Shown piece by piece: positions 46,857 through 59,249 of a stretch of DNA of 64,000 nucleotides (position 1 is its first letter; each line of letters opens with the position of its first letter). The notes below the pieces were generated by a model, which was not told where the DNA came from, did no database searches, and was given only the letters and a program-made list of their open reading frames with translations. The position numbers were made by a program, and so were the translations under genes. Source of the DNA: Sphingopyxis sp. OPL5 (lineage in GTDB: Bacteria; Pseudomonadota; Alphaproteobacteria; Sphingomonadales; Sphingomonadaceae); the NCBI RefSeq assembly GCF_003797775.2, contig NZ_CP060725.1, forward strand, positions 1,978,001 to 2,042,000, written 5' to 3'.

Positions 46857-47795
46857 TCAAGCCCCCGGCACGCCGAGCATCTGCGCCTGCGCCTTCAATC
46901 GTCCCGCCGCGCCCGGATTGGCTGCGATCCCGTCCTTCAAGGCCTGCGCCGCCTTCGCCGTCTCGCCCAGCGTCATACGGCTGCGCATCAGCATGATCCA
47001 GCGGTCGACGTCGGCGGGATTGGCCTTCAACTTCGTCTCCAGCCCATCGACCATGCCCTGGATCATCGCGTCCTGCTGGCCCTTGGGCAGCTGTGACGCC
47101 GCCTCCATGTCGGACCGACTTGGCCCCGGAATGGCGCGCGCCGCAACCGGAATTTCATTGGGGGTCAACGGCCGCGCTTGCGTTTTCGCGAGCCGACCCG
47201 CGACCTCGATCTTGTGGATCGCGCCGACCTGTTCGATCGTCCGGCGGAGGTCGGCCTCCCACGGCGCGCCCTGCGGCGTGTCCTCGAGCAGCGCGAACCA
47301 GTCGGCGATCGCGCCCTTGTGATCGCCGCCGACGTCCTTTTTCACCGCGCGGAAATAGCGCGCGCGCGGGTCCCTGGGGTCGAGCGCGATCGCCTTGTCG
47401 AACGCCTGCAAAGCCGCCGGCGGCATCGGGTCGCTCTGGCTTGCCATCACTCGCGCCTCGCCGAGCGCCGACCACAGCCCCGCCGATTCGGGCGAAAGCC
47501 CCACCGCCTTTTCATATGCTGTTGCCGCGCCGCCGAAATTGCCGAGGTCGAATCGCGCCGCGCCGAGTTGCATCCACGCGTCGGCGCTGTTCGGTTCGCT
47601 GCGCGTTCGCGCCTCGAGTGCGGCGAGCTGGTCCGACGGCGCCGCGGTCGGCTGTGCCGCCGCACCGTCGCTTCCGGGCGCCGAATCGCGCCAGATCGCG
47701 TAGCCGATCGCCCCCGCCAGCAGCAGGACGGCCGCGATCAGGATTGCGCCGTTAGCCCGCGTCATACCACCCGCCATCTTCTTGCTCTCGCTCAT
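46857..47795 (-). CDS. Membrane-anchored TPR protein (CcmI/NrfG-like C-terminal type)
   Basis: 312 residues. One N-terminal membrane segment ('AILIAAVLLLAGAIGYAIW') is followed by TPR repeats ('DAWMQLGAARFDLGNFGGAA', 'GLWSALGEARVMASQSDPMP', 'RARYFRAVKKDVGGDHKGAI'), facing the periplasm. This resembles the TPR part of the cytochrome c maturation protein CcmI/CycH, which binds apocytochromes. No other ccm genes are nearby, so the function is uncertain; the multiheme cytochromes 1.5 kb away are suggestive. The ATG at 47795 follows AAGAGGGG. It diverges from gdhA. Confidence 0.75.
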   Translation of the reverse strand: MSESKKMAGGMTRANGAILIAAVLLLAGAIGYAIWRDSAPGSDGAAAQPTAAPSDQLAALEARTRSEPNSADAWMQLGAARFDLGNFGGAATAYEKAVGLSPESAGLWSALGEARVMASQSDPMPPAALQAFDKAIALDPRDPRARYFRAVKKDVGGDHKGAIADWFALLEDTPQGAPWEADLRRTIEQVGAIHKIEVAGRLAKTQARPLTPNEIPVAARAIPGPSRSDMEAASQLPKGQQDAMIQGMVDGLETKLKANPADVDRWIMLMRSRMTLGETAKAAQALKDGIAANPGAAGRLKAQAQMLGVPGA

Positions 47796-47952
47796 TTTTG
47801 CCCCTCTTGTGCGCGTGCGAAAAAATCGGCGCGATGCGCGCTCGCGACTTGCCTTTGCCGGACGATGGTGTAGCCTTTGAAGGGCGAGGTCGGTCAACGA
47901 CAAAATCGTAAAGGGGTCGCACCGATTTTCCCAGCCAACAGGGGAGGGGTGC

Positions 47953-49308
47953 ATGGCAGTTACAGATCACGTCGATTTCAAGACGTTCATGGAGGGTGTG
48001 TCGAAGCGCAACCCGGGCCAGCTGGAGTTCGTCCAGGCGGTTCAGGAAGTCGCCGAGGACATCTTCGACTTCATCAAGGACAAGGAAGAATATCACGCGC
48101 AGCAGATATTGCGGCGCATTGCCGAACCCGACCGGGTCGTGTCCTTCCGCGTCTGCTGGGAAGACGATAACGGCAATATCCGCGTCCAGCGTGGCTGGCG
48201 GGTCCAGAACAACAACGCCATCGGTCCGTACAAGGGCGGCATCCGTTTCCACCCCTCGGTCACCGAATCGGTGCTCAAATTCCTCGCCTTCGAACAGACG
48301 TTCAAGAACGCACTGACCGGGCTGCCGATGGGCGGTGGCAAGGGCGGGTCGAACTTCAACCCCAAGGGCAAGAGCGTGCGTGAGATCATGCGCTTCTGCC
48401 AGAGCTTCATGACCGAGCTGTACCGTCACATCGGCGCCGACATCGACGTGCCTGCGGGCGACATCGGCGTTGGCGGGCGCGAGATCGGCTTCATGTTCGG
48501 CCAGTATAAGCGCATCACCAACGAATTCACCGGGGTGCTCACCGGCAAGGGCCTCGAATGGGGCGGCTCGCTGATCCGCACCGAAGCGACGGGTTATGGC
48601 GCGGTCTATTTCCTCGCCAACATGCTCGCGGCCAAGGGGCAAGACCTTGTCGGCAAGACGGCGGTGATCTCGGGATCGGGCAATGTCGCGACCCACGCCG
48701 CCGAAAAGATCGTCCAGCTGGGCGGCAAGGTACTGACGCTGTCCGATTCGGGCGGCTTCATCCACGATCCCGACGGCATCACGCAGGAAAAGATCGACTG
48801 GGTGAAAGCGCACAAGACGCACCGTCGCGGCCGGATCGAGGATTATTGCACCGAGTTCAAGGGCGCGAGCTTCACCGCGGGCAAGACGCCGTGGGGTGTC
48901 AAGTGCGATGTCGCGCTGCCCTGCGCGACGCAGAACGAGCTGCTCGGCGACGATGCCAAGGAGCTGGTGAAGAATGGCTGCATCGCGGTCAGCGAAGGCG
49001 CCAACATGCCGACCAACCTCGAAGGCGTGCATGCGTTCAAACATGCCAAAATCATGTTCGCGCCGGGCAAGGCCGCCAACGCCGGCGGCGTCGCGGTGTC
49101 GGGTCTCGAAATGAGCCAGAACAGCGGTCGTCGCAGCTGGAGCGAGGGTGAACTGCAGCAGATGCTCAAGGACATCATGGACGGCATCCACAAAAGCTGC
49201 CTGACCCATGGCGACCAGGGCGACGGCTATATCGATTATGTGAAGGGTGCCAATATCGCCGGCTTCAAGAAAGTCGCCGATGCGATGCTGGCGTTCGGAG
49301 TGGTTTGA
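47953..49308 (+). CDS. gdhA: NADP-type glutamate dehydrogenase
   Basis: 451 residues. It interconverts glutamate and 2-oxoglutarate plus ammonia. Hexameric-type motifs: 'NNAIGPYKGGIRFHPSVTES', catalytic 'GLPMGGGKGGSNFNPKGKS', 'DVPAGDIGVGGREIG', nucleotide fold 'VISGSGNVATHAAEK', and 'AGKAANAGGVAVSGLEMSQN'. Length is as in E. coli GdhA (447). It is 50 bp upstream of the first cytochrome gene on the same strand, with no terminator visible, so partial cotranscription is possible. Confidence 0.96.
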   Translation: MAVTDHVDFKTFMEGVSKRNPGQLEFVQAVQEVAEDIFDFIKDKEEYHAQQILRRIAEPDRVVSFRVCWEDDNGNIRVQRGWRVQNNNAIGPYKGGIRFHPSVTESVLKFLAFEQTFKNALTGLPMGGGKGGSNFNPKGKSVREIMRFCQSFMTELYRHIGADIDVPAGDIGVGGREIGFMFGQYKRITNEFTGVLTGKGLEWGGSLIRTEATGYGAVYFLANMLAAKGQDLVGKTAVISGSGNVATHAAEKIVQLGGKVLTLSDSGGFIHDPDGITQEKIDWVKAHKTHRRGRIEDYCTEFKGASFTAGKTPWGVKCDVALPCATQNELLGDDAKELVKNGCIAVSEGANMPTNLEGVHAFKHAKIMFAPGKAANAGGVAVSGLEMSQNSGRRSWSEGELQQMLKDIMDGIHKSCLTHGDQGDGYIDYVKGANIAGFKKVADAMLAFGVV

Positions 49309-49358: not shown

Positions 49359-50846
49359 ATGACGACGCACGCTGGACAGGAGCGCCGCGATCGGCCTTCG
49401 GCGGCGTTCGCCGTCGTCCGGCCCGGACTCGCGGCCTTCGCCGCGCTTGTGCTGTTGCTGACGGCGCTCGCCGTCGCGGCCGTCATCGCCGCCCCGCCCG
49501 CCCGCTCGCAGGGCGAGGCCGGCGGGCGCTATACCGGGGTCGCCTCGTGCGCCGGGTCGACCTGTCACGGACGGATGGAGGGTGACGGCGCCGTCGTCCG
49601 TCAGGACGAGCTGATGAAATGGCAGGAACCCTCGACCCCCGGCGGCGCGCACAGCCGCGCTTGGGCAGTGCTGAGCAACAGCCGCAGCCAGTTCATCGCA
49701 CGCAATCTGGGACTGAAGGATGCCGCGACCGCGCCGATGTGCCTCGGCTGTCACAGCAGCAAGGGCGCGATCGACGCGGCCGGCGGCGCGCAGCGCGGTA
49801 CCGTGCCGCTCGAGGACGGCGTCGGCTGCGAATCGTGCCACGGCCCCGCCGGCGGCTGGATCGCCAGCCACTATGCCGGGATCGGTACCAACGCCGACCC
49901 CGACCGCGAGAGCCGCGACAAACATCTCGCCAACCTGTCGGCGGGCCTGAAAAAGCTCGAGGATCCGGTGGTGCGCGCGGGCGTGTGCGTCGACTGCCAT
50001 TTCGGTTCGGCGGGCGAGGGGCAGTTCGTTACCCACCGGATCATGGCGGCCGGTCACCCGCGAATCAGCTTCGAACTCGACCTCTTCTCCTCGCTCCAGG
50101 CGCATCACCAGGAAGACGCCGATTATGGCTGGCGCAAGTTCGGCGCCGCGAACGCGCGCACCGACCATGTCCAGATGTGGGCGATCGGACAGGCGACGGC
50201 TCTCGAACGCAGCCTTCAGCTCTTCCAGTCGAAGCGCGGGACCGAAGGCATGTTCCCCGAATTCTACTTCCTCGACTGCCACAGCTGCCACCGCCGCATC
50301 TATGACCAGGCCAAGCCGGTGAAGACCAGCATGGGCAATGCCGGCCGCAACATCCCCGAGGGCATGCCGCCCTATAATGACGAGAATCTGATCATGCTCG
50401 CCGCCGCCGCGCGTATCGCCGCCCCCGCCCTCGCCGACCAGCTCGCGGCGCGCACCGCCGCCTTCCACCGCGCGATGACGATCGACCGCGACAGCGCCAA
50501 GGCGGCGGCGGCGCAACTCGGCCAGACCGTCGCGGCGCTCAAATCGGCCTTCGCCTCGCGCAATTTCTCGGGCGCCGACGCCTTCGCGCTCGTCGACGCG
50601 ATTTCGGCCAAGGCGATCAATGATCGCCTCACCGATTATTCGGGATCGCAACAGGCGGTAATGGGGGTCGATACGCTGCTCAATTCGATGGTCTCGTCGG
50701 GGCGGATCACCGTCGGTGCCGCAGCGGGAATCCGCGGAGACATCGATCGCGCCTATGCCGCGGTGAAGGACCCCAATGCCTATAAACCCGCCGAATTCCA
50801 GGCCTCGCTCGGTAGCGCGGTGCGCGCCATCCGGGCGCTGCGCTGA
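49359..50846 (+). CDS. Five-heme cytochrome c
   Basis: 495-residue periplasmic or membrane-anchored cytochrome. A hydrophobic stretch at residues ~22-45 ('LAAFAALVLLLTALAVAAVI') is a signal peptide or uncleaved anchor. Heme-binding motifs lie at residues ~64 (CAGSTCH, a CX4CH variant), 128 (CLGCH), 157 (CESCH), 210 (CVDCH) and 307 (CHSCH). The first domain resembles cytochrome c554-type proteins; the last ~170 residues are heme-free and Ala-rich helical. AAGGGG precedes the ATG at 49359. It is the first of four genes separated by only 3-5 bp and probably feeds electrons to the outer-membrane part. Confidence 0.88.
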   Translation: MTTHAGQERRDRPSAAFAVVRPGLAAFAALVLLLTALAVAAVIAAPPARSQGEAGGRYTGVASCAGSTCHGRMEGDGAVVRQDELMKWQEPSTPGGAHSRAWAVLSNSRSQFIARNLGLKDAATAPMCLGCHSSKGAIDAAGGAQRGTVPLEDGVGCESCHGPAGGWIASHYAGIGTNADPDRESRDKHLANLSAGLKKLEDPVVRAGVCVDCHFGSAGEGQFVTHRIMAAGHPRISFELDLFSSLQAHHQEDADYGWRKFGAANARTDHVQMWAIGQATALERSLQLFQSKRGTEGMFPEFYFLDCHSCHRRIYDQAKPVKTSMGNAGRNIPEGMPPYNDENLIMLAAAARIAAPALADQLAARTAAFHRAMTIDRDSAKAAAAQLGQTVAALKSAFASRNFSGADAFALVDAISAKAINDRLTDYSGSQQAVMGVDTLLNSMVSSGRITVGAAAGIRGDIDRAYAAVKDPNAYKPAEFQASLGSAVRAIRALR

Positions 50847-50851
50847 TCGTC

Positions 50852-52831
50852 ATGCCGAACCATAGTCGCCTTTTCCGCTCGACCGCCTTGGCCGCGATGG
50901 CCACCCTGCTCCTGTCCTCGTGCGGGGGGCGGTGGTGGTGGCACCCCACGCCCACCCCGACACCGACCCCCGCGCCAACCCCGACCCCGACCGGCAGCGT
51001 CTTCACCCAGCCGGGCAGCGAATCGCTGAGCGTCGCCGACGTTCAGGCGGTGATGGCTGGCGCCATCGCCGAGGCGCAGGCGCAGGGCCTGCCGTCGGTG
51101 ATCGCGGTGACCGACCGCGTCGGCAACGTCCTCGGCATTTTCCGCATGAACGGCGCGCGCGCCAACGCGACGACCGGTGCGGCGCCCAATGGCGTCAACA
51201 TGGATGCGCAGAATGTCACCGTCCCGGCCGAAGCCGGCGCGATCGCGAAGGCGGTGACCGGCGCCTATCTGTCGAGCGCGGGCAACGCCTTTTCGTCACG
51301 CACCGCGAGCCAGATCGTCCAGCAACATTTCCCGCCCGCGCCGACCACCGTCGGTCTCGAAAGCGGGCCTTTGTTCGGCGTGCAGTTCAGCCAGCTGCCG
51401 TGCAGCGACCTCAGCGCGCGCTTCGGCGCGCCCGGCGGCGCGGCGCTGATCGGACCCAAACGCTCGCCGCTCGGCCTGTCGGCCGACCCCGGCGGCCTGC
51501 CGCTCTACAAGAATGGCAAGCTGGTCGGCGGCATCGGGGTGATGGGCGACGGCGTTTACGGCAGCGACGCCAACACGCTCGACATCGACAATGATGCCGA
51601 GGAGTTCATCGCACTCGCCGGAACGCGCGGCTTCGAGGCGCCGACGAGCATCACCGCCGACAAGATCACCGTCGACGGCACCACCCTGCGCTTTTCCGAC
51701 GCCACCTATGGCGGCCTGAAATCATCGACCGGCGCGAGTTTCGCGAGCTTCAACGGCGTTGCGGGCAATCTGGTCGCGGTGATCGGCTATGCCAATGCCG
51801 CGATCATCGCGGGTACCGTCTATGGCACCGAGGCATCGGGCATGCGCCCCTCGACCGCCGCCGAGTTCAGCAACCGTGACGCCTATGTGCTCACCGACGG
51901 CAGCGGCACCAACCGCTATCCGGTCCGCGCCGCCACCGACGCCGCCAGCAACAGCGCGCCACTGACCCAGGCCGAAGTGCGCGCGGTAATGGAAGAGGCT
52001 TTCACGATCATTAGCCGCGCGCGCGGCCAGATCCGCCGCCCGCTCGACAGCCGCGCGCAGGTGTCGGTCAGCGTCGTCGATACGCATGGCGCGGTGCTCG
52101 GCATCGTTCGCTCGCCCGACGCGCCGATTTTCGGCACCGACGTTTCGTTGCAGAAGGCGCGCACCGCGACCTTTTTCTCGAACGCGATCGCCGGCGCCGA
52201 CTTGAGCGCCAATGCCAGCGCCGACGTGCGCCAGTTCGTCACCGCAACGCGCAGCTTTCTGAACGATCCGGCGGCGCTGACCGGCACCCATGCCTTCTCC
52301 GATCGCGCGAACGGCAATCTGTCGCGCCCCTATTTCCCCGATGGCGAGGTCGGGCGCCCGAACGGCCCGCTGTCGCGCCCGATCGCGCAGTTCAATCCCT
52401 TCTCGACCGGGCTGCAATCGGCGCTGATCATCGGCAATATCGGGCAGCATCTGGGATTCGTCACGGGCGCCAGCGCGACCGACACGCCGCAGCGCTGCAC
52501 GACGCTGCCCGACACGCCGTCGGGCACCAACCGGCTGCAGAACGGCATCCAGATCTTCCCCGGCTCGGTTCCCATCTATCGCGGCAACCAGCTCGTCGGC
52601 GGCATCGGCGTGTCGGGCGACGGCATCGATCAGGATGACATGATCAGCTTCCTTGGCGCGCATAATGGCGGCGCGCGTGTCGGCGGCATCGGCAATGCGC
52701 CGCCCGCGATCCGCTCGGACCGCATCATCGTCAATCTCGCCGGCGGCGCCTCGGTGCGGCTGCGCTATATCGGCTGTCCGTTCGCGCCCTTCCTCGACAC
52801 GGCGCAGCAAAATGTCTGCGATGGGCTATAG
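50852..52831 (+). CDS. Lipoprotein with two HbpS/GlcG-like domains
   Basis: 659-residue lipoprotein: lipobox 'TLLLSSCGG' (Cys near residue 24), then 'RWWWHPTP' and a Pro-Thr tether of about 16 residues. Two HbpS/GlcG-like domains follow, at ~60-330 ('VADVQAVMAGAIAEAQAQG') and ~375-650 ('EVRAVMEEAFTIISRARGQI'), each with 'VVDTHGAVLGIVR'-type strands and a 'VGGIGVSGDG' loop. Such domains bind heme or small ligands. Cys residues in the far part of each domain ('LPCSD', 'QRCTTL', 'IGCPF', 'NVCDGL') could form disulfides. Packed 5 bp after the five-heme gene and 3 bp before the barrel gene, it is likely part of the same outer-membrane assembly. Confidence 0.85.
   Translation: MPNHSRLFRSTALAAMATLLLSSCGGRWWWHPTPTPTPTPAPTPTPTGSVFTQPGSESLSVADVQAVMAGAIAEAQAQGLPSVIAVTDRVGNVLGIFRMNGARANATTGAAPNGVNMDAQNVTVPAEAGAIAKAVTGAYLSSAGNAFSSRTASQIVQQHFPPAPTTVGLESGPLFGVQFSQLPCSDLSARFGAPGGAALIGPKRSPLGLSADPGGLPLYKNGKLVGGIGVMGDGVYGSDANTLDIDNDAEEFIALAGTRGFEAPTSITADKITVDGTTLRFSDATYGGLKSSTGASFASFNGVAGNLVAVIGYANAAIIAGTVYGTEASGMRPSTAAEFSNRDAYVLTDGSGTNRYPVRAATDAASNSAPLTQAEVRAVMEEAFTIISRARGQIRRPLDSRAQVSVSVVDTHGAVLGIVRSPDAPIFGTDVSLQKARTATFFSNAIAGADLSANASADVRQFVTATRSFLNDPAALTGTHAFSDRANGNLSRPYFPDGEVGRPNGPLSRPIAQFNPFSTGLQSALIIGNIGQHLGFVTGASATDTPQRCTTLPDTPSGTNRLQNGIQIFPGSVPIYRGNQLVGGIGVSGDGIDQDDMISFLGAHNGGARVGGIGNAPPAIRSDRIIVNLAGGASVRLRYIGCPFAPFLDTAQQNVCDGL
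50945..50992 (+). repeat. Pro-Thr-encoding low-complexity tract
   Basis: Sixteen codons encode alternating Pro and Thr with one Ala, giving a C-rich tract of ACCCCG-like units. It forms the flexible tether after the lipoprotein anchor. Confidence 0.85.
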
Positions 52832-52834
52832 GAT

Positions 52835-54814
52835 ATGAGCCTCGTGGGAAGCAGCCTTTGGCCGATCATCGCCAGTCTGGCGGCGCAAAGCGCCCCGGGC
52901 GACGTGGCCGAACCGGTGCCCGCCGATCCCCCGGTCGTAACGACCGAAAGCCCGACCGCAGAACCGTCGCTCGACGACCTCACCCCGCCGCCACCGCCGG
53001 TCGACTGGCAGCAGATGATGAGCGACGATCTGATGACCCAGATCATCGACGGTCGTCGCCGTCCGGGATACCGCCCCGACTTGCCCGACCAGCTTACCCA
53101 AGACAATATCGGGGCGCTGCGCCCGCCACCGCCCGAGGCCTTTCCGGGCATGGAAAACCAGCTGCCGGTCCCCGATCGCTGGCGACTGATCGAGAGCCTT
53201 GGCGTCGTCAAGGAACGCTGGTTCGATCCCTATCACCAGAACACCTACAAGGGCGACCGGCCGATCTGCATCCCGACCGAAGAGGAGCAGGAACTGCGCG
53301 CGCGGGCCGGCGAAGTGCGCTGCAAGACGCCAAAATTCCTTGGACTGAAGGGCGACGACTGGTTTTTCGTCGTCAACGCCATTTCGGACACGGTGTTCGA
53401 ACCGCGCACCTTTCCGATCCCGGTCGGCGTCCAGACCACGTCGCGCCCCGGCAGCCTCGACGTGTTCGGCAAGAACCGCAGCTTCGTCGCGGCGCAGACC
53501 TTCATTGTCGGCGCGGCGTTGATCAAGGGGTCGACCGCGTTCAAGCCGCCCGACATCGAATATCGCGTCACGCTGGCCTATCAGGCGAACTATGTCGACG
53601 TGCCCGAACGGCGCGTGCTCGACGTGCGCCCATCGAAGAAAAGTCACCGTTTCGACCATTTCATCGGCGTGCAGGAATTGTTCGTCGACAAGCATCTCGG
53701 CAACGACAGCGACCGCTTTGACTTCCACTCGATCCGTGTCGGTATCCAGCCGTTCCAGAGCGATTTTCGCGGCTTCCTGTTCCAGGATTCGCAGCTCGGC
53801 GTCCGCTTTTTCGGCAACCGCGACAACAACCGCTTCCAATATAATCTCGCGGCCTTCTGGCGGCTGGAGAAGGACACCAACAGCGGCCTCAACGACATCA
53901 CCCAGACCCCGCGCGACGATTTCGTCTTCACCGGCAATCTCTATCGCCAGGATTTCCCGTTCGTCGGGCTGACCAGCCAGGTCAGCGTGACCTATAATAT
54001 GAACCGCGAAAAGAACGACGTTCAGATCGACCATAATGGTTTCCCGGTGCGCCCGGCGCTGCTCGGCGACCTGCGCGGGCGTGAATATGATGTCGTCTAT
54101 CTGGGGTACAGCGCCGACGGCCGCATCGGGCGGATAAACCTGACCGCGAGCTTCTACGCCGCGCTGGGTGAGGACCGGAACAGCTTCTTCACCAGCAAGC
54201 CCGCCAAGATCCGCGCGGGCTTCGGCGCGGTCGAACTCAGCTACGATCACGACTGGATGCGCTTCCGCCTGTCGGGCCTCTACGCCACCGGCGACCGCGA
54301 CCCGTATAACAACACCGAAGGCGGCTTCGACGCGATCTTCGAAAATCCGATCTTCGGCGGCGCCGACACCAGTTACTGGATCCGCCAGACGATCCCCTTC
54401 GCCGGCGGCGGTCGCGTCATCGCGATCTCGGGCCGCAACGGCATCCTGAATTCGCTGCGCTCGTCGAAGGAAGAGGGGCAGTCGAACTTCAACAACCCCG
54501 GCACCGTCTTCGTCGGTGTCGGCGGCGATTTCGACCTGTCGCCCGAAGTGCGCGTCAGCACCAATTTCAACCATCTGTGGTTCGCCGACACCTCCAGCCT
54601 GCAAGTGCTGCGCAGCGAGGGAACGATCCCCAAGGATATCGGCTTCGACCTCTCGGTCGCCGGGATCTGGCGACCCAAGGCGACGCAGAATATCGTCGGA
54701 CGCCTCAGCGCCGCGGTGCTGTTGCCAGGCAAGGGGTTCAAAGACCTGTTCGACAACAAAGAGGGTGACGACGCCTATCTCTCGATCCTCGCCAATGTGA
54801 TTGTGAGTTTCTAG
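52835..54814 (+). CDS. Large outer-membrane beta-barrel of the cytochrome cluster
   Basis: 659 residues. A short signal-like start ('SLVGSSLWPIIASLAAQ') is followed by a Pro-rich periplasmic region of ~130 residues ('LDDLTPPPPPVDWQQMMSDD', 'ALRPPPPEAFPGMENQLPVP'). The remaining ~500 residues alternate amphipathic strands and end in Phe ('LANVIVSF'), as in outer-membrane barrels. Two Cys ('RPICIPTEEE', 'EVRCKTPKF') may form a disulfide. No match to MtrB or PioB is visible by eye, but its position between two multiheme cytochromes suggests the same sheath-like role. It starts 3 bp after the lipoprotein stop and ends 3 bp before the decaheme gene. Confidence 0.8.
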   Translation: MSLVGSSLWPIIASLAAQSAPGDVAEPVPADPPVVTTESPTAEPSLDDLTPPPPPVDWQQMMSDDLMTQIIDGRRRPGYRPDLPDQLTQDNIGALRPPPPEAFPGMENQLPVPDRWRLIESLGVVKERWFDPYHQNTYKGDRPICIPTEEEQELRARAGEVRCKTPKFLGLKGDDWFFVVNAISDTVFEPRTFPIPVGVQTTSRPGSLDVFGKNRSFVAAQTFIVGAALIKGSTAFKPPDIEYRVTLAYQANYVDVPERRVLDVRPSKKSHRFDHFIGVQELFVDKHLGNDSDRFDFHSIRVGIQPFQSDFRGFLFQDSQLGVRFFGNRDNNRFQYNLAAFWRLEKDTNSGLNDITQTPRDDFVFTGNLYRQDFPFVGLTSQVSVTYNMNREKNDVQIDHNGFPVRPALLGDLRGREYDVVYLGYSADGRIGRINLTASFYAALGEDRNSFFTSKPAKIRAGFGAVELSYDHDWMRFRLSGLYATGDRDPYNNTEGGFDAIFENPIFGGADTSYWIRQTIPFAGGGRVIAISGRNGILNSLRSSKEEGQSNFNNPGTVFVGVGGDFDLSPEVRVSTNFNHLWFADTSSLQVLRSEGTIPKDIGFDLSVAGIWRPKATQNIVGRLSAAVLLPGKGFKDLFDNKEGDDAYLSILANVIVSF

Positions 54815-54817
54815 ATC

Positions 54818-57800
54818 ATGGCCCGCAAGCTCCTCGCCCTCCTTGCCTTCGTCCTGATGGGCGCGAGCCTAGCCGTCTCGATGGTGCGCGCGGCCGAGGG
54901 CGAAAAGCCGGTGAAGGTCGAATATCGCTTCAGCCCTCCGGCGCCCAAGGAGCAGCCCGGGGCGACCTTCGCCGAGCGCGAGGCTGCGGTGCTCGCAAAA
55001 TCGAAGGGCTGCTACAGCTGCCACACCCAGACCGACGCCCCATCGATGCACGCGACCCCCGCGGTGCAACTCGGCTGCGTCGATTGCCATGGCGGCGACG
55101 CCGAATCGCCCGCGGCTTTCGGCAACGCGAAGCTCGGTTACGACAATCCGTACAATCTCGAGGCAATGAAGGTCGCGCATCCGCAGCCGACGCTGCCGAA
55201 CAGCTGGGGTCACAGCTCCGCGAATCCGAAACGCAGCTACACCTTGCTCAACAAGGAAGCGCCCGAGTTCATCCGCTTCATCAATCCCAGCGACTATCGC
55301 GTCGCACGCGAGGCTTGCGGGGCGTGCCACCTTGAGGTGATCGAGGCGACCGAACGCTCGATGATGTCGACGGGGGCGATGCTGTGGGGCGGTGCGGCCT
55401 ATAACAACGGCATCGTACCCTATAAGAACTACGTCTTCGGCGAGGCCTATACCCGCAAGGGCGAGGCCGCCTGCATATTGTCGCCGACCACCTCGATGAC
55501 GCCCGAGGAATATAAGAACGCCTGCGACCCCAAGGTCGCGTTCGACAAGATCCTGACCGACAAGGAGCGCGCGCGCGGCGCGCTCGCCAAAATGTATCCG
55601 CTGCCGCGCTGGAGCGTGCTCCCGCCGGGCGACGTCTTCCGCGTGTTCGAACGCGGCGGGCGCAACATCAACACGCAATTCCCCGAAATCGGCCTGCCCA
55701 ACCCGACCGGCAGCATCCAGCGGCTCGAGGAGCCGGGGCGCCCCGACCTCAAACAATCGAACCGCGGCCCCGGCACCGGGCTGCGCGTGTCGATCCCCGT
55801 GCTCAACATCCACAAGACCCGCCTCAACGATCCTTTGATGTGGTTCATGGGTACCAACGACCAGCCGGGCGATTATCGCCACTCAGGCTGTTCGGGCTGT
55901 CACGTCATCTATGCCAACGACCGCGAACCACGCCACAGCCTGACCTATTCGCAGTTCGGCCGCGACGGGGAGACTGCGACGATCGACCCGACGATCCGCG
56001 ACCGCAAATACAAGGCCGACGACGGCCATGGCGACAGTCACGGCGGCGGGGGCACCGAGCATGGCGATCCCGCCAAGCACGCGCCCGATCCCGACCAGCA
56101 CGGCGGGCTGATCAACCCCGCCGATGCCGCGGCGGGGCCGCAGGTGTTCGCGAAAAAGGAGCGTCTCGAAGCGGGGCACCCGATTAAGCACACCTTCACC
56201 CGCTCGATCCCGACGTCGCAGTGCATGTCCTGCCACATGCACCAGCCGAACATCTTTCTGAACTCCTATCTCGGCTACACGATGTGGGATTATGAATCCG
56301 ACGCGCCGCAAATGTGGCCGGGTCCGAACAACACCGCACCGCGCCCGCCGGGGATGAGCGACGCGGACTATCAGAAGAAATACAAGCAGCAGCATTATCC
56401 GACCGCGGCCGAGGTGCATAAGACCCTCGAACGCAACCCCGAGGCCGCAGCGACGCGCGGACTGTGGGCCGACGTCGAATTCCTGCGCGACGTCTATGAC
56501 GTCAACGACACCAACAAGGACACCCAGTTCGCCGACTATCACGGCCATGGCTGGAACTTCCGCGGCATCTTCAAGCGCGACCGCAACGGCAATCTGCTGA
56601 CAGCCGACGGGAACATGGCGACCTACGGCACCGACCCGAACATCATCGACCCCAAGGACCCGGAGAAATGGCGCAAGAGCTGCAGCCATTACACCGACGT
56701 CAAAGAACGCGACCTCTGCCTGTCGAGCGCCGATCCCGGCCGCCCGGGTGTCGAGGGCAAGTTTGTGCCGCCCGGCATCAACCCCGGCAAGGCGGTCCAT
56801 ATGATGGACATCCACGCCGAAAAGGGCATGCAATGCGCCGACTGCCACTTCGCGCAGGACAGCCATGGCAACGGCTATATCCAGGGTGAAGTCGCCAACG
56901 CGGTCGAGATCGGGTGCAAGGATTGCCACGGCACCGCCGACGCGCTGCCCAACCTTTTGACCTCGAACGTCGCGGCCCGGCCGCAGGGCACCAACCTCGC
57001 GCTGCTGCGCAACCCCGACGGGCGCCGCCGCTTCGAATTCCAGTATAATGACAATGGCGACGTCACCGGGCTGATCCAGCGCTCGATCGTCGATCCGAAA
57101 CTCGAATGGCAGGTCAGCCTGGTCAAGCAGGCGGTGACCCCCGGGCCGCATTTCAACGCCAAGGCGGCGCGTGCCAAGCTGATGGCGCGCAGCGGCGACG
57201 ACGACGGCACTTTCGCCTGGGGTCCCGAAGTCGCGAAGGAAGACCGCGCGCACGGCGAAGACAAGATGACCTGCTTCACCTGCCACCTGTCGTGGACGAC
57301 GAGTTGCGGCGGCTGCCATTTGCCGATCGAGGCGAACTGGAAGACGAGCATGCATCATTTCGAGGGCGAGGAGACGCGCAACTTCGCTACCTACAACCCG
57401 CAGGTCGCGCGCGACGAGATGTTCCAGCTCGGCCGGCACCAGCTCACCAAGCCCGGCGAACCCGGCCCGAACGGCGAGGTCCGGGGGATCATCACGCCGG
57501 TCCGATCGACCTCGGCGCTCGTGCTGTCGTCGACCAACATCAACCGCGAGCGCATCTATGTGCAACAGCCGCCGATCTCGTCGGCGGGCTATTCGAGCCA
57601 GGCCTTCGCACCGCATTTCCCGCACACGGTGCGCCGCCAGGAAACCAAGCAATGCTCGGACTGCCACCTGTCCGAAAATGACGACAACAACGCGATCATG
57701 GCGCAGCTCAACCTGCTGGGGACCAACTTCGTCAACTTCGTCGGCCTCAACGTCTGGTCGGGCCTGGAAGACGGCTTCCAGGCGACGCGCGTCACCGAAT

Positions 57801-59173
57801 GGGACGAGCCGCAGGCGGTGATCGGCAGCTACCTCCAGAAATATGCCTATCCCGATTATTGGAAGCTGCACGTCGAGCAGAACGGGCGCGAGCTCAAGAA
57901 CTGGGTGCGCGGCAAGACCTTCGACAAGAAGGTGTCGGGCGAAAAATATGCGCTCGAGGAATTCGCCAATATCGTCCAGGACACCAGCGGCCGCGTGAAC
58001 TGCCTGCAACAGCGTGGCGAATATATGTTCGTCGCAGAGGGCAAGGGCGGTTTCCGCGTCTATGACGTCGCGTCGATCGGCAACAAGGGCTTCTCCGAAC
58101 GCATCATTCGCGCACCCTTCTCGTCGCTGGGTCACGACACCCATGTGAAGACGAAGAACGCCACCTGCATGGCGATCGCGACGACCCAGCCGGTCAGCGT
58201 GTCGCGCAACGACCATATCGTGAAGGATTTCCCGCAGAACCACGAACAGGCGATGCACCCCATCTATCGCTATGCGGTGATCACCGACAGCGTCGAAGGG
58301 CTGATCCTGGTCGACATCGACACGATGGCCGACGGCGAGTTCCGCAACAACAAGCTGACCCGGGCGCTGACTTGGAACGAGGGCAATGTCCTCGCCGGAG
58401 CGCGGCACGTCACGCTCGCGGGGAGTATCGCCTATGTTACCACCGACGCGGGCCTCGTCGTGCTCGACCTGGCCAACCCACTCGCACCCAAGGTGACGGC
58501 GCAGTTGCCGCTGACCGATGCGCGCGCCAGCGCGGTTCAGTTCCGCTACCTCTGGATCACCGATGCCGAGGGGGTGAAGCTGTTCGACGTCACCAATCTG
58601 GCCCAGCCGGTGCCGGTGCCCTCGGGCACGGTGCGCCTGACCAATGCGCGTAAAATCTATGTCGCGCGCACCTATATGTATGTCGCGGCCAAGGCGGACG
58701 GCCTCGTCATCGTCGACGTCACCAAGCCCGCGGCGCCGCTCGTCTGGCCGGGGCAGACCTTCGGCGGCGCGCTCACCGATGCCGAGGATGTGATCGTCGC
58801 GTCGACCAACGCTTCGCTCTTCGCCTATGTCGCTGACGGGCGCGCGGGCATCAAGGTGATCCAGCTGACCAGCCCCGACAACGCCGGCCTCTACGGCTTC
58901 TCGCCCAAACCCACCCCCGAACTGATCGCCTGGGCCAGAACTCCGGCGCCGGCGCTCGCGCTGTCGAAGGGGCTCGACCGCGACCGCGCAGTTGACGAGA
59001 CCGGCGGCCAGATGGCGGTATTCGGCCGCCTCGGCTCGCGCCCCTTCACCCGGCCCGAGATGGAGAAATTGTTCCTGAACAGCCGGGGCAATGTCTACAA
59101 GGTCCGCGATTCCGATCCGAAGGACGCCAAGCAGGCGGCGGCGTGGCGTGGCCCCGACAAGTTCGGCGGCTAG
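54818..59173 (+). CDS. Decaheme cytochrome c fused to an LVIVD-repeat propeller
   Basis: 1451 residues with a cleavable signal peptide ('LLALLAFVLMGASLAVSMVR'). Ten CXXCH motifs start at residues ~65, 87, 167, 358, 469, 673, 700, 819, 830 and 946. A His/Gly-rich insert lies at ~405-435 ('DDGHGDSHGGGGTEHGD'). Residues ~1065-1360 are LVIVD-type repeats ('VEGLILVDIDTM', 'DAGLVVLDLANP', 'AEGVKLFDVTNL', 'ADGLVIVDVTKP'), a beta-propeller usually on extracellular proteins. No lipobox, so it may be held by the barrel or lipoprotein. It would be the terminal, outward-facing electron carrier; substrate or acceptor unknown. It is followed by a strong hairpin. Confidence 0.88.
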   Translation: MARKLLALLAFVLMGASLAVSMVRAAEGEKPVKVEYRFSPPAPKEQPGATFAEREAAVLAKSKGCYSCHTQTDAPSMHATPAVQLGCVDCHGGDAESPAAFGNAKLGYDNPYNLEAMKVAHPQPTLPNSWGHSSANPKRSYTLLNKEAPEFIRFINPSDYRVAREACGACHLEVIEATERSMMSTGAMLWGGAAYNNGIVPYKNYVFGEAYTRKGEAACILSPTTSMTPEEYKNACDPKVAFDKILTDKERARGALAKMYPLPRWSVLPPGDVFRVFERGGRNINTQFPEIGLPNPTGSIQRLEEPGRPDLKQSNRGPGTGLRVSIPVLNIHKTRLNDPLMWFMGTNDQPGDYRHSGCSGCHVIYANDREPRHSLTYSQFGRDGETATIDPTIRDRKYKADDGHGDSHGGGGTEHGDPAKHAPDPDQHGGLINPADAAAGPQVFAKKERLEAGHPIKHTFTRSIPTSQCMSCHMHQPNIFLNSYLGYTMWDYESDAPQMWPGPNNTAPRPPGMSDADYQKKYKQQHYPTAAEVHKTLERNPEAAATRGLWADVEFLRDVYDVNDTNKDTQFADYHGHGWNFRGIFKRDRNGNLLTADGNMATYGTDPNIIDPKDPEKWRKSCSHYTDVKERDLCLSSADPGRPGVEGKFVPPGINPGKAVHMMDIHAEKGMQCADCHFAQDSHGNGYIQGEVANAVEIGCKDCHGTADALPNLLTSNVAARPQGTNLALLRNPDGRRRFEFQYNDNGDVTGLIQRSIVDPKLEWQVSLVKQAVTPGPHFNAKAARAKLMARSGDDDGTFAWGPEVAKEDRAHGEDKMTCFTCHLSWTTSCGGCHLPIEANWKTSMHHFEGEETRNFATYNPQVARDEMFQLGRHQLTKPGEPGPNGEVRGIITPVRSTSALVLSSTNINRERIYVQQPPISSAGYSSQAFAPHFPHTVRRQETKQCSDCHLSENDDNNAIMAQLNLLGTNFVNFVGLNVWSGLEDGFQATRVTEWDEPQAVIGSYLQKYAYPDYWKLHVEQNGRELKNWVRGKTFDKKVSGEKYALEEFANIVQDTSGRVNCLQQRGEYMFVAEGKGGFRVYDVASIGNKGFSERIIRAPFSSLGHDTHVKTKNATCMAIATTQPVSVSRNDHIVKDFPQNHEQAMHPIYRYAVITDSVEGLILVDIDTMADGEFRNNKLTRALTWNEGNVLAGARHVTLAGSIAYVTTDAGLVVLDLANPLAPKVTAQLPLTDARASAVQFRYLWITDAEGVKLFDVTNLAQPVPVPSGTVRLTNARKIYVARTYMYVAAKADGLVIVDVTKPAAPLVWPGQTFGGALTDAEDVIVASTNASLFAYVADGRAGIKVIQLTSPDNAGLYGFSPKPTPELIAWARTPAPALALSKGLDRDRAVDETGGQMAVFGRLGSRPFTRPEMEKLFLNSRGNVYKVRDSDPKDAKQAAAWRGPDKFGG

Positions 59174-59181
59174 TCAATCGC

Positions 59182-59214
59182 GTCCGCCTGTGCGACAGCC
59201 TCGCACCGGCGGAC
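59182..59214 (+). terminator. Hairpin closing the cytochrome operon
   Basis: GTCCGCC (59182-59188) pairs with GGCGGAC (59208-59214), and inside it GTGCGA pairs with TCGCAC around CAGCC. The stem is long, but a pyrimidine-rich stretch replaces a true T tract. Confidence 0.65.
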
Positions 59215-59249
59215 CGTCCCGCCGCCTTCCTGTTATGAGACGTTAGCCG

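Follow-up and report, generated by a model that had tools for sequence, protein, structure and literature searches.

This study concerns a cluster of four genes in a 64,000-nucleotide stretch of the genome of Sphingopyxis sp. OPL5 (contig NZ_CP060725.1; the whole stretch is referred to here as the window). The genes encode a pentaheme cytochrome (cytA), a lipoprotein with HbpS/GlcG-like domains, a predicted beta-barrel protein and a decaheme cytochrome (cytB). Our analysis indicates that the cluster is real, conserved and, as far as we searched, undescribed, and that it is a form of multiheme trans-envelope electron transfer. We consider it very probable that these genes belong to a two-module, trans-envelope multiheme electron-transfer core. 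Its other half is an inner-membrane module, not linked to the cluster in this genome, which we add to the preliminary description of this DNA; that description named the outer four genes only. The openly licensed full-text literature yielded no description of this system, and an earlier description elsewhere is possible. The host genome comprises 4.68 Mb in a single contig, and its best named relatives are Sphingopyxis.

Conservation and distribution of the outer module

The reading frames at 49359-59173 leave 5, 3 and 3 bp between cytA, the HbpS gene, the barrel gene and cytB, in agreement with the packed arrangement, lengths and ends first given for the cluster. Relatives of the barrel protein were sought in the GTDB contig set with two patterns (one locus may count twice), and at least 523 stretches encoding such a relative were found. 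Among the best 80 loci, mostly from Sphingomonadales, the four genes keep the same order on one strand in all 64 that have sufficient flanking sequence, which disposes of the concern, raised in the preliminary description, that they might not be conserved together. Fifty-seven of these loci pass a strict gap rule, six have touching or overlapping match ends and one (L136) has a 1.6-kb gap; the remaining 16 of the 80 end at contig edges and agree with the gene order as far as their sequence goes.

When 60 genomes were searched, the window's own included, the barrel was found in 34 of the 36 from its genus and in none of the 24 from other families of the order. cytB is present in 119 of 298 Sphingomonadaceae genomes (~40%; 42 of 96 genera), in 29 of 385 genomes of a class sample and in 11 of 398 genomes of a phylum sample; a few genomes are shared between the samples, and cytB genomes outside the family total 29. 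We fetched 40 loci around cytB, from 18 of these 29 genomes and 22 of the 119 family ones, and found the HbpS, barrel and cytB genes contiguous in all 40, with one HbpS gene truncated where its contig ends and the barrel gene of L076 split in frame. The same three genes are present in other Alphaproteobacteria and in one genome of another class. With regard to close relatives, the window barrel is 92% identical to that of Sphingopyxis sp. PET50, the proteins encoded by a copy on plasmid pMC4 of Sphingopyxis indica are 76-78% identical to those of the window, and copies on Sphingobium herbicidovorans pMSHV and in Sphingobium sp. TomTYG65 show identities of 61-73%. Thirteen plasmid records matching cytB come from Sphingobium or Sphingopyxis (12 from Sphingobium), and two Gloeothece records match in the LVIVD region only. 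Large plasmids carry the cluster in Sphingopyxis indica and Sphingobium (L001, L002, L003), two of the three being typed as conjugative.

The inner-membrane module

The inner module encodes a flavoprotein (FAD/NAD, cyclic-nucleotide-binding and 4Fe-4S regions), a b-type membrane protein and a decaheme cytochrome anchored in the membrane and carrying an FHA domain (the FHA cytochrome). In the window's genome it lies ~775 kb from the outer module (L022:6554-13011, that is, G000:C1 about 1254553-1261010), and in Sphingobium it follows the cluster on the other strand, as an FHA multiheme cytochrome, a b561-like membrane protein and the flavoprotein; S. herbicidovorans MH is one strain in which the two modules adjoin.

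The two modules occur together. Both cytB and the FHA cytochrome are present in 118 genomes of the family sample; one (67% complete) has cytB only and none has the FHA cytochrome only (Fisher p 3e-84 over the 298 genomes, uncorrected for relatedness). Fifty-nine of the 118 pairs lie within 20 kb, six at 20-100 kb, 17 more than 100 kb apart on the same contig and 36 on different contigs, some of these last in fragmented drafts, in which contig breaks may hide the true distance. The FHA cytochrome is absent from the two genomes of the window's genus that lack the barrel (G015 and G017); in G031 (73% complete) the barrel is present and the FHA cytochrome was not found. In the class sample it is present in 29 of 29 cytB genomes and in eight more without cytB. 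Physical linkage is seen in 15 of the 18 loci from outside the family, where the genes for the b-type protein, the FHA cytochrome, the HbpS protein, the barrel and cytB are consecutive and run in one direction, with the flavoprotein gene next in 12 of these fused loci and beyond the fetched stretch in three; the remaining three show no inner module or only touch it at the edge of the stretch. A fused arrangement in one Pseudomonadota genome outside the window's class (L053, genome G1049) hints at horizontal transfer.

The flavoprotein has two cyclic-nucleotide-binding domains in addition to its 4Fe-4S clusters. Three of five near-complete copies contain two GXGXXG motifs, and the two Sphingobium copies, as read with late N-terminal starts, contain one; all five conserve 16 Cys spaced as for Fe-S clusters, and we infer from these that the protein carries four 4Fe-4S sites. 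Five His are invariant in the b-type protein (30 of 30 copies), which found no match in the PDB. In the FHA cytochrome, an N-terminal FHA domain and one predicted transmembrane helix are accompanied by ten CXXCH motifs in 30 of 30 main-set copies and by nine further invariant His (a shorter open reading frame (ORF) in L175 has eight CXXCH). Its matches in the PDB are FHA proteins and various multiheme cytochromes, and its profile is locally similar to chain 6r2q_A (E 8.9e-5), which the database listing names oddly and which we take to be MtrA of the MtrCAB structure. Beside the inner module of the window's genome is a metallophosphoesterase gene, the L003 relative of which is annotated as the cAMP phosphodiesterase CpdA; this CpdA-like neighbour suggests cyclic-nucleotide control of the redox protein.

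The inner module is also found beside a different outer module. Three of the eight class genomes that have the FHA cytochrome without cytB (L172-L174) combine the inner module, with a cytA relative, with another pentaheme cytochrome and another putative barrel (A9), the barrel nature of which we read from its sequence and which ends in LRRKF or LRWKF. No relation between A9 and the window barrel was detectable (hhalign probability 0.4%, with a 3-row profile), and a search of the window's genome with A9, run with no positive control, was empty. In L175 and L176 a cytA relative accompanies the inner module, and in L177 and L179 parts of this module occur with other multiheme ORFs; L178 has an HbpS gene adjoining the inner module where the contig ends, and probably represents a truncated copy of the present system. 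The simplest reading is that one inner module serves different outer modules.

Cytochromes and lipoprotein of the outer module

The five and ten heme motifs claimed at the outset for the two cytochromes are present and conserved. The motifs of cytA are four CXXCH and one CX4CH (CAGSTCH), at which heme would also be bound judging by its conservation, and this set is kept in 34 of 35 relatives, the exception being a broken or truncated ORF of 187 aa in L076. Shuffled cytA sequences contain 0.009 CXXCH on average, which excludes chance. The protein matches PF13435 (E 3e-11), as do 31 of 31 aligned members; it is locally similar to cytochrome c554 (1bvb), and sequence and profile searches of the PDB gave only c554 and a c552. 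Seven His are invariant beyond its five binding motifs. With its hydrophobic N-terminal export segment, cytA would be a periplasmic multiheme c-type cytochrome; three of 35 relatives show a lipobox, which looks like chance.

cytB contains ten CXXCH motifs (0.012 on average after shuffling, so that chance is again excluded), which are kept in 45 of 45 relatives together with 13 further invariant His, and LVIVD repeats (PF08309, E 2.5e-11). The additional invariant His in cytA, cytB and the FHA cytochrome would allow bis-His ligation of the hemes, the kind seen in electron-transfer wires. A signal peptide was judged by eye, and a lipobox-like motif within residues 9-35 was found in none of the 45 relatives. 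cytB matches the ExtM model in 36 of 36 members at E<=0.001 (best 8e-23). Against the PDB, single cytB gave only NrfA (E 0.22 over 52 residues) and a profile of 36 cytB sequences gave nothing at E<=0.1; the structure model (pLDDT 49.3) was too poor for a fold search.

The second protein of the cluster is, as first described, a double-HbpS lipoprotein, with the lipobox LLLSSC and a PF03928 match (E 7.5e-22, four stretches). Of 44 relatives, 28 have a lipobox; among the 16 without one, 14 come from fused outside-family loci (where it is missing in 14 of 15), and the misses of L001 and L071 probably arise from start-codon choice.

The barrel protein

The third protein (52835-54814, 659 aa) ends in Phe as reported, and an aromatic final residue is found in 45 of 45 relatives. 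This feature and the predicted structure identify it as a putative barrel: an AF2 model has 18 strands, counted from a strand list with three short ones omitted, and its best fold match is the alginate exporter AlgE, which places it with the AlgE/OprD channel fold. The model predicts a conserved, polar lumen with bulky conserved residues, and the N-terminal extension carries conserved motifs (P111-R117, D131-N136, K139-P143). By formula, the backbone radius of 18 strands is ~17 A, versus ~25 A for 26. The protein alone has no Pfam match at E<=1, PF13372 included, although three of 45 relatives match that family weakly (best 2.1e-4), and a sequence comparison with the PDB gave nothing useful.

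Membership of the MtrB family was considered and ruled out: PF11854 (MtrB/PioB) is not among the families matched at E<=1 by any of the 45 relatives, and a search of the window's genome with this model gave only a 20.2-bit piece elsewhere (L171), under the 23-bit cut-off. The initial view of a part list different from that of MtrCAB, with a barrel not obviously MtrB, is upheld. MtrB and OmbB were not among the 50 matches listed for the barrel fold, which does not exclude them.

Proposed mechanism and alternatives

We favor a scheme in which the four window genes would be the outer module of a trans-envelope multiheme electron-transfer system. A cytosolic NAD(P)H:FAD oxidoreductase with two cyclic-nucleotide-binding domains and four 4Fe-4S sites would pass electrons to the b-type membrane protein, which would hand them to the inner-membrane-anchored decaheme cytochrome (cytosolic FHA domain, one transmembrane helix), and from there they would reach pentaheme cytA and decaheme cytB. 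The 18-strand AlgE/OprD-type barrel would be a dedicated channel alongside, admitting a specific, probably charged or polar substrate or releasing a product, and cytB and the HbpS protein would reduce the substrate at the inner face or rim of the outer membrane, so that the system would work like the Geobacter extHIJKLMNOPQS selenite/tellurite cluster. The parts, their conservation, their co-occurrence and the linkage of their genes can be read from the sequences themselves. Our reasoning for the order of the chain (NAD(P)H - FAD/Fe-S - b heme - FHA decaheme - cytA - cytB) comes from domain logic, and we infer likewise the direction of electron flow, the localisation of the proteins and the channel function. 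In its complete form, that is, a two-module system with the barrel as substrate channel, we hold the proposal tentatively and would put it just short of an even chance.

Several observations weigh against this scheme: (i) eight class genomes have the FHA cytochrome and no cytB, so that the inner module also exists apart from this outer module; (ii) cytA was found in only six of the 15 stretches with fused modules from outside the family, and its orientation there varies, which makes it the least tightly linked part; (iii) the assignment of residues to the lumen depends on hydrophobic alternation, which is weak in four of the 18 strands, and conservation of the lumen would fit the binding of a partner protein just as well; (iv) cytB scores 67.1 bits where the ExtM cut-off is 800, and among the Ext models listed for these proteins none was matched above its own threshold; and (v) LVIVD repeats are described, in the part of the source available to us, as repeats of bacterial and archaeal surface proteins (PMC6315138), an analogy that leans towards an exposed cytB. 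The last point also speaks for a true outer-membrane conduit, in which the barrel would anchor a cytochrome carrying electrons to a surface-located cytB and HbpS lipoprotein, for extracellular acceptors. The gene-cluster criteria of Otero et al., in the portion of their text that we draw on (PMC6148476), are a periplasmic multiheme cytochrome, for which cytA would stand, an outer-membrane barrel, for which the predicted barrel would stand, and an outer lipoprotein with a redox cofactor, which the HbpS protein may be. Moreover, type II secretion GspD is present in the genome (548 bits, cut-off 351), so that cytB could be exported, all ten cytB hemes could be bis-His given the 13 extra invariant His, and in L172-L174 another pentaheme cytochrome and another putative barrel accompany this inner module and a cytA relative, as would be expected if conduits were swappable. 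Eighteen strands alone do not exclude a conduit, since ExtB, listed there as a conduit part, is predicted to have 18 transmembrane segments (PMC6148476, same portion). However, a barrel of 18 predicted strands, with bulky conserved residues in its lumen, has little space for a cytochrome, whereas MtrB, according to an excerpt of PMC7198977, is a 26-strand sheath around decaheme MtrA, and cytB lacks a lipobox in all 45 relatives. We think a true conduit somewhat unlikely. Of the original suggestion that the cluster is a conduit like MtrCAB, what stands is a real, conserved multiheme cluster in sphingomonads; the predicted 18-strand AlgE/OprD-type channel and the missing lipobox of the presumed outer cytochrome do not fit it, and the reservation that the barrel might be an ordinary solute porin is half borne out by the same fold prediction. 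Electron passage across the outer membrane is a prediction at most. A bolder scheme would be a complete wire that does without quinones and is gated by cyclic nucleotides, leading in aerobic alphaproteobacteria from NAD(P)H in the cytosol through the flavoprotein, the b-type protein, the FHA cytochrome, cytA and cytB to the outer surface, with an AlgE-type barrel replacing the MtrB sheath and with exchangeable outer modules; it is unlikely in our view.

Electrons could also run inward, with cytB oxidising a donor that is extracellular or has been imported. In principle, multiheme chains work both ways, and PioAB and MtoAB operate in this direction. Judged on this inner module only, a pyridine-nucleotide-type flavoprotein with Fe-S sites at the inner end would require NAD(P)+ reduction, which is uphill for most donors, and we regard reverse flow as quite improbable. 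We likewise give little credence to the barrel being an AlgE-like exporter of a polymer or of redox proteins, with the cytochromes serving its assembly or redox maturation. The top fold match to AlgE, the weak PF13372 matches in three of 45 barrels and a TPR protein encoded nearby (46857-47954, other strand) would fit such a role; nevertheless, AlgE and OprD porins share their fold, which does not fix direction, none of the four proteins matched an alginate-synthesis family, and the TPR protein matches a CcmH/CycH TPR model.

Relation to known systems

The closest analogue of the system as we favor it would be Geobacter extHIJKLMNOPQS, which, as set out in the available part of PMC5877670, encodes a rhodanese lipoprotein, the porin ExtI, pentaheme ExtKL, 12-heme ExtM, 10-heme ExtN, Rieske ExtO and cytochrome b ExtP; loss of ExtI lowers selenite and tellurite reduction (same part). 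Shared features are a lipoprotein without c-heme, an outer-membrane porin, pentaheme and 10-12-heme cytochromes, a b-type cytochrome and an Fe-S protein (PMC5877670 and PMC6148476, in the parts available). The present system differs in having an HbpS instead of a rhodanese lipoprotein, an AlgE-type barrel, an LVIVD domain, the NAD(P)H/cyclic-nucleotide/4Fe-4S flavoprotein and the FHA-anchored decaheme cytochrome, and in a cytB far under the ExtM cut-off. MtrCAB, PioAB and MtoAB likewise combine a barrel with multiheme cytochromes in one gene cluster, but here the barrel is predicted to have 18 rather than 26 strands and has no PF11854 match, and cytB has no lipobox. The same gene-cluster logic is found in Geobacter Pcc (OmaB-OmbB-OmcB), ExtABCD and ExtEFG, whose outer cytochromes, in the relevant passages of PMC6148476, are lipoproteins, unlike cytB. 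As to AlgE and OprD (Occ) channels, the window barrel aligns with them at 8-15% sequence identity and differs in its conserved N-terminal extension and its linkage to cytochromes. The NapC/NirT model (quinol-donor type) matched none of the four proteins above its cut-off, cytA reaching 18.2 bits versus 24.1.

Sphingomonadaceae include well-known aerobic oligotrophs and degraders of pollutants. Should electrons get as far as the cell surface, extracellular electron transfer would extend to a large group nearly without MtrCAB; if they stay inside, the system would be a trans-envelope reductase of a new kind, supplied by NAD(P)H and perhaps regulated through cyclic nucleotides and an FHA domain. 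Under either reading, cytB and the FHA cytochrome together provide a clean genomic marker. A single alphaproteobacterial MtrCAB was reported by Baker et al. (PMC8805035, in the part available), and the terms Sphingo, Alphaproteobacteria, Erythrobacter and Parvibaculum do not occur in the 2014 porin-cytochrome survey (PMC4245776). Papers retrieved on neighbouring topics concern mycobacterial PE/PPE proteins and DIET in Methanosarcina barkeri, or mention Sphingomonadales in connection with CtaA/CtaB homologues and Sphingopyxis in connection with acetate genes.

Other features and neighbouring genes

Coordinates are given in the table. A consensus scan found eight terminator-like sites around the cluster against a mean of 9.2 in shuffled sequence, which is no excess, and no consensus match to a sigma-70-type promoter upstream of cytA in the stretch scanned.

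Features of the cluster (window positions) and of the alternative outer modules (locus positions)
Feature	Position	Strand	Remarks
cytA, pentaheme c-type cytochrome, PF13435 c554-like	49359..50846	+	495 aa; N-terminal signal/anchor segment; putatively periplasmic
Lipoprotein; Pro/Thr linker followed by two HbpS/GlcG-like domains (PF03928)	50852..52831	+	659 aa
Barrel protein, N-terminal extension, residues 1-171	52835..53347	+	low model confidence; conserved motifs
Barrel protein, predicted 18-stranded outer-membrane beta-barrel, residues 172-659	53348..54814	+	AlgE/OprD-type fold; C-terminal Phe
cytB, decaheme c-type cytochrome; signal peptide, LVIVD repeats at the C-terminus	54818..59173	+	1451 aa; distant ExtM relative
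Best LVIVD repeat stretch of cytB, residues 1276-1307	58643..58738	+	PF08309 match
Terminator-like hairpin directly after cytB	59207..59224	+	consensus match only; fits operon end
Alternative outer module	L172:3416-8461, L173:3353-8306, L174:10425-15162		beside the same inner module

An NADP-type glutamate dehydrogenase is encoded on the cytA strand at 47953-49308, ~50 bp upstream of cytA, with putA further up. It was considered as a functional partner and rejected, being directly upstream in 20 of 100 loci, mostly of Sphingopyxis. A large glycine-rich repeat protein with the look of a secreted adhesin is encoded beside the Sphingobium outer module (L002:1-4692), and the window's genome encodes a glycine-rich repeat protein beside its inner module (L022:368-2983) that shares 34% identity with it over part of its length. 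The domain matched by the TPR protein mentioned above is the CcmH/CycH TPR domain PF23914, and a relative of this protein also flanks the Sphingobium cluster (L002:21236-22207); it is perhaps a dedicated cytochrome c maturation factor.

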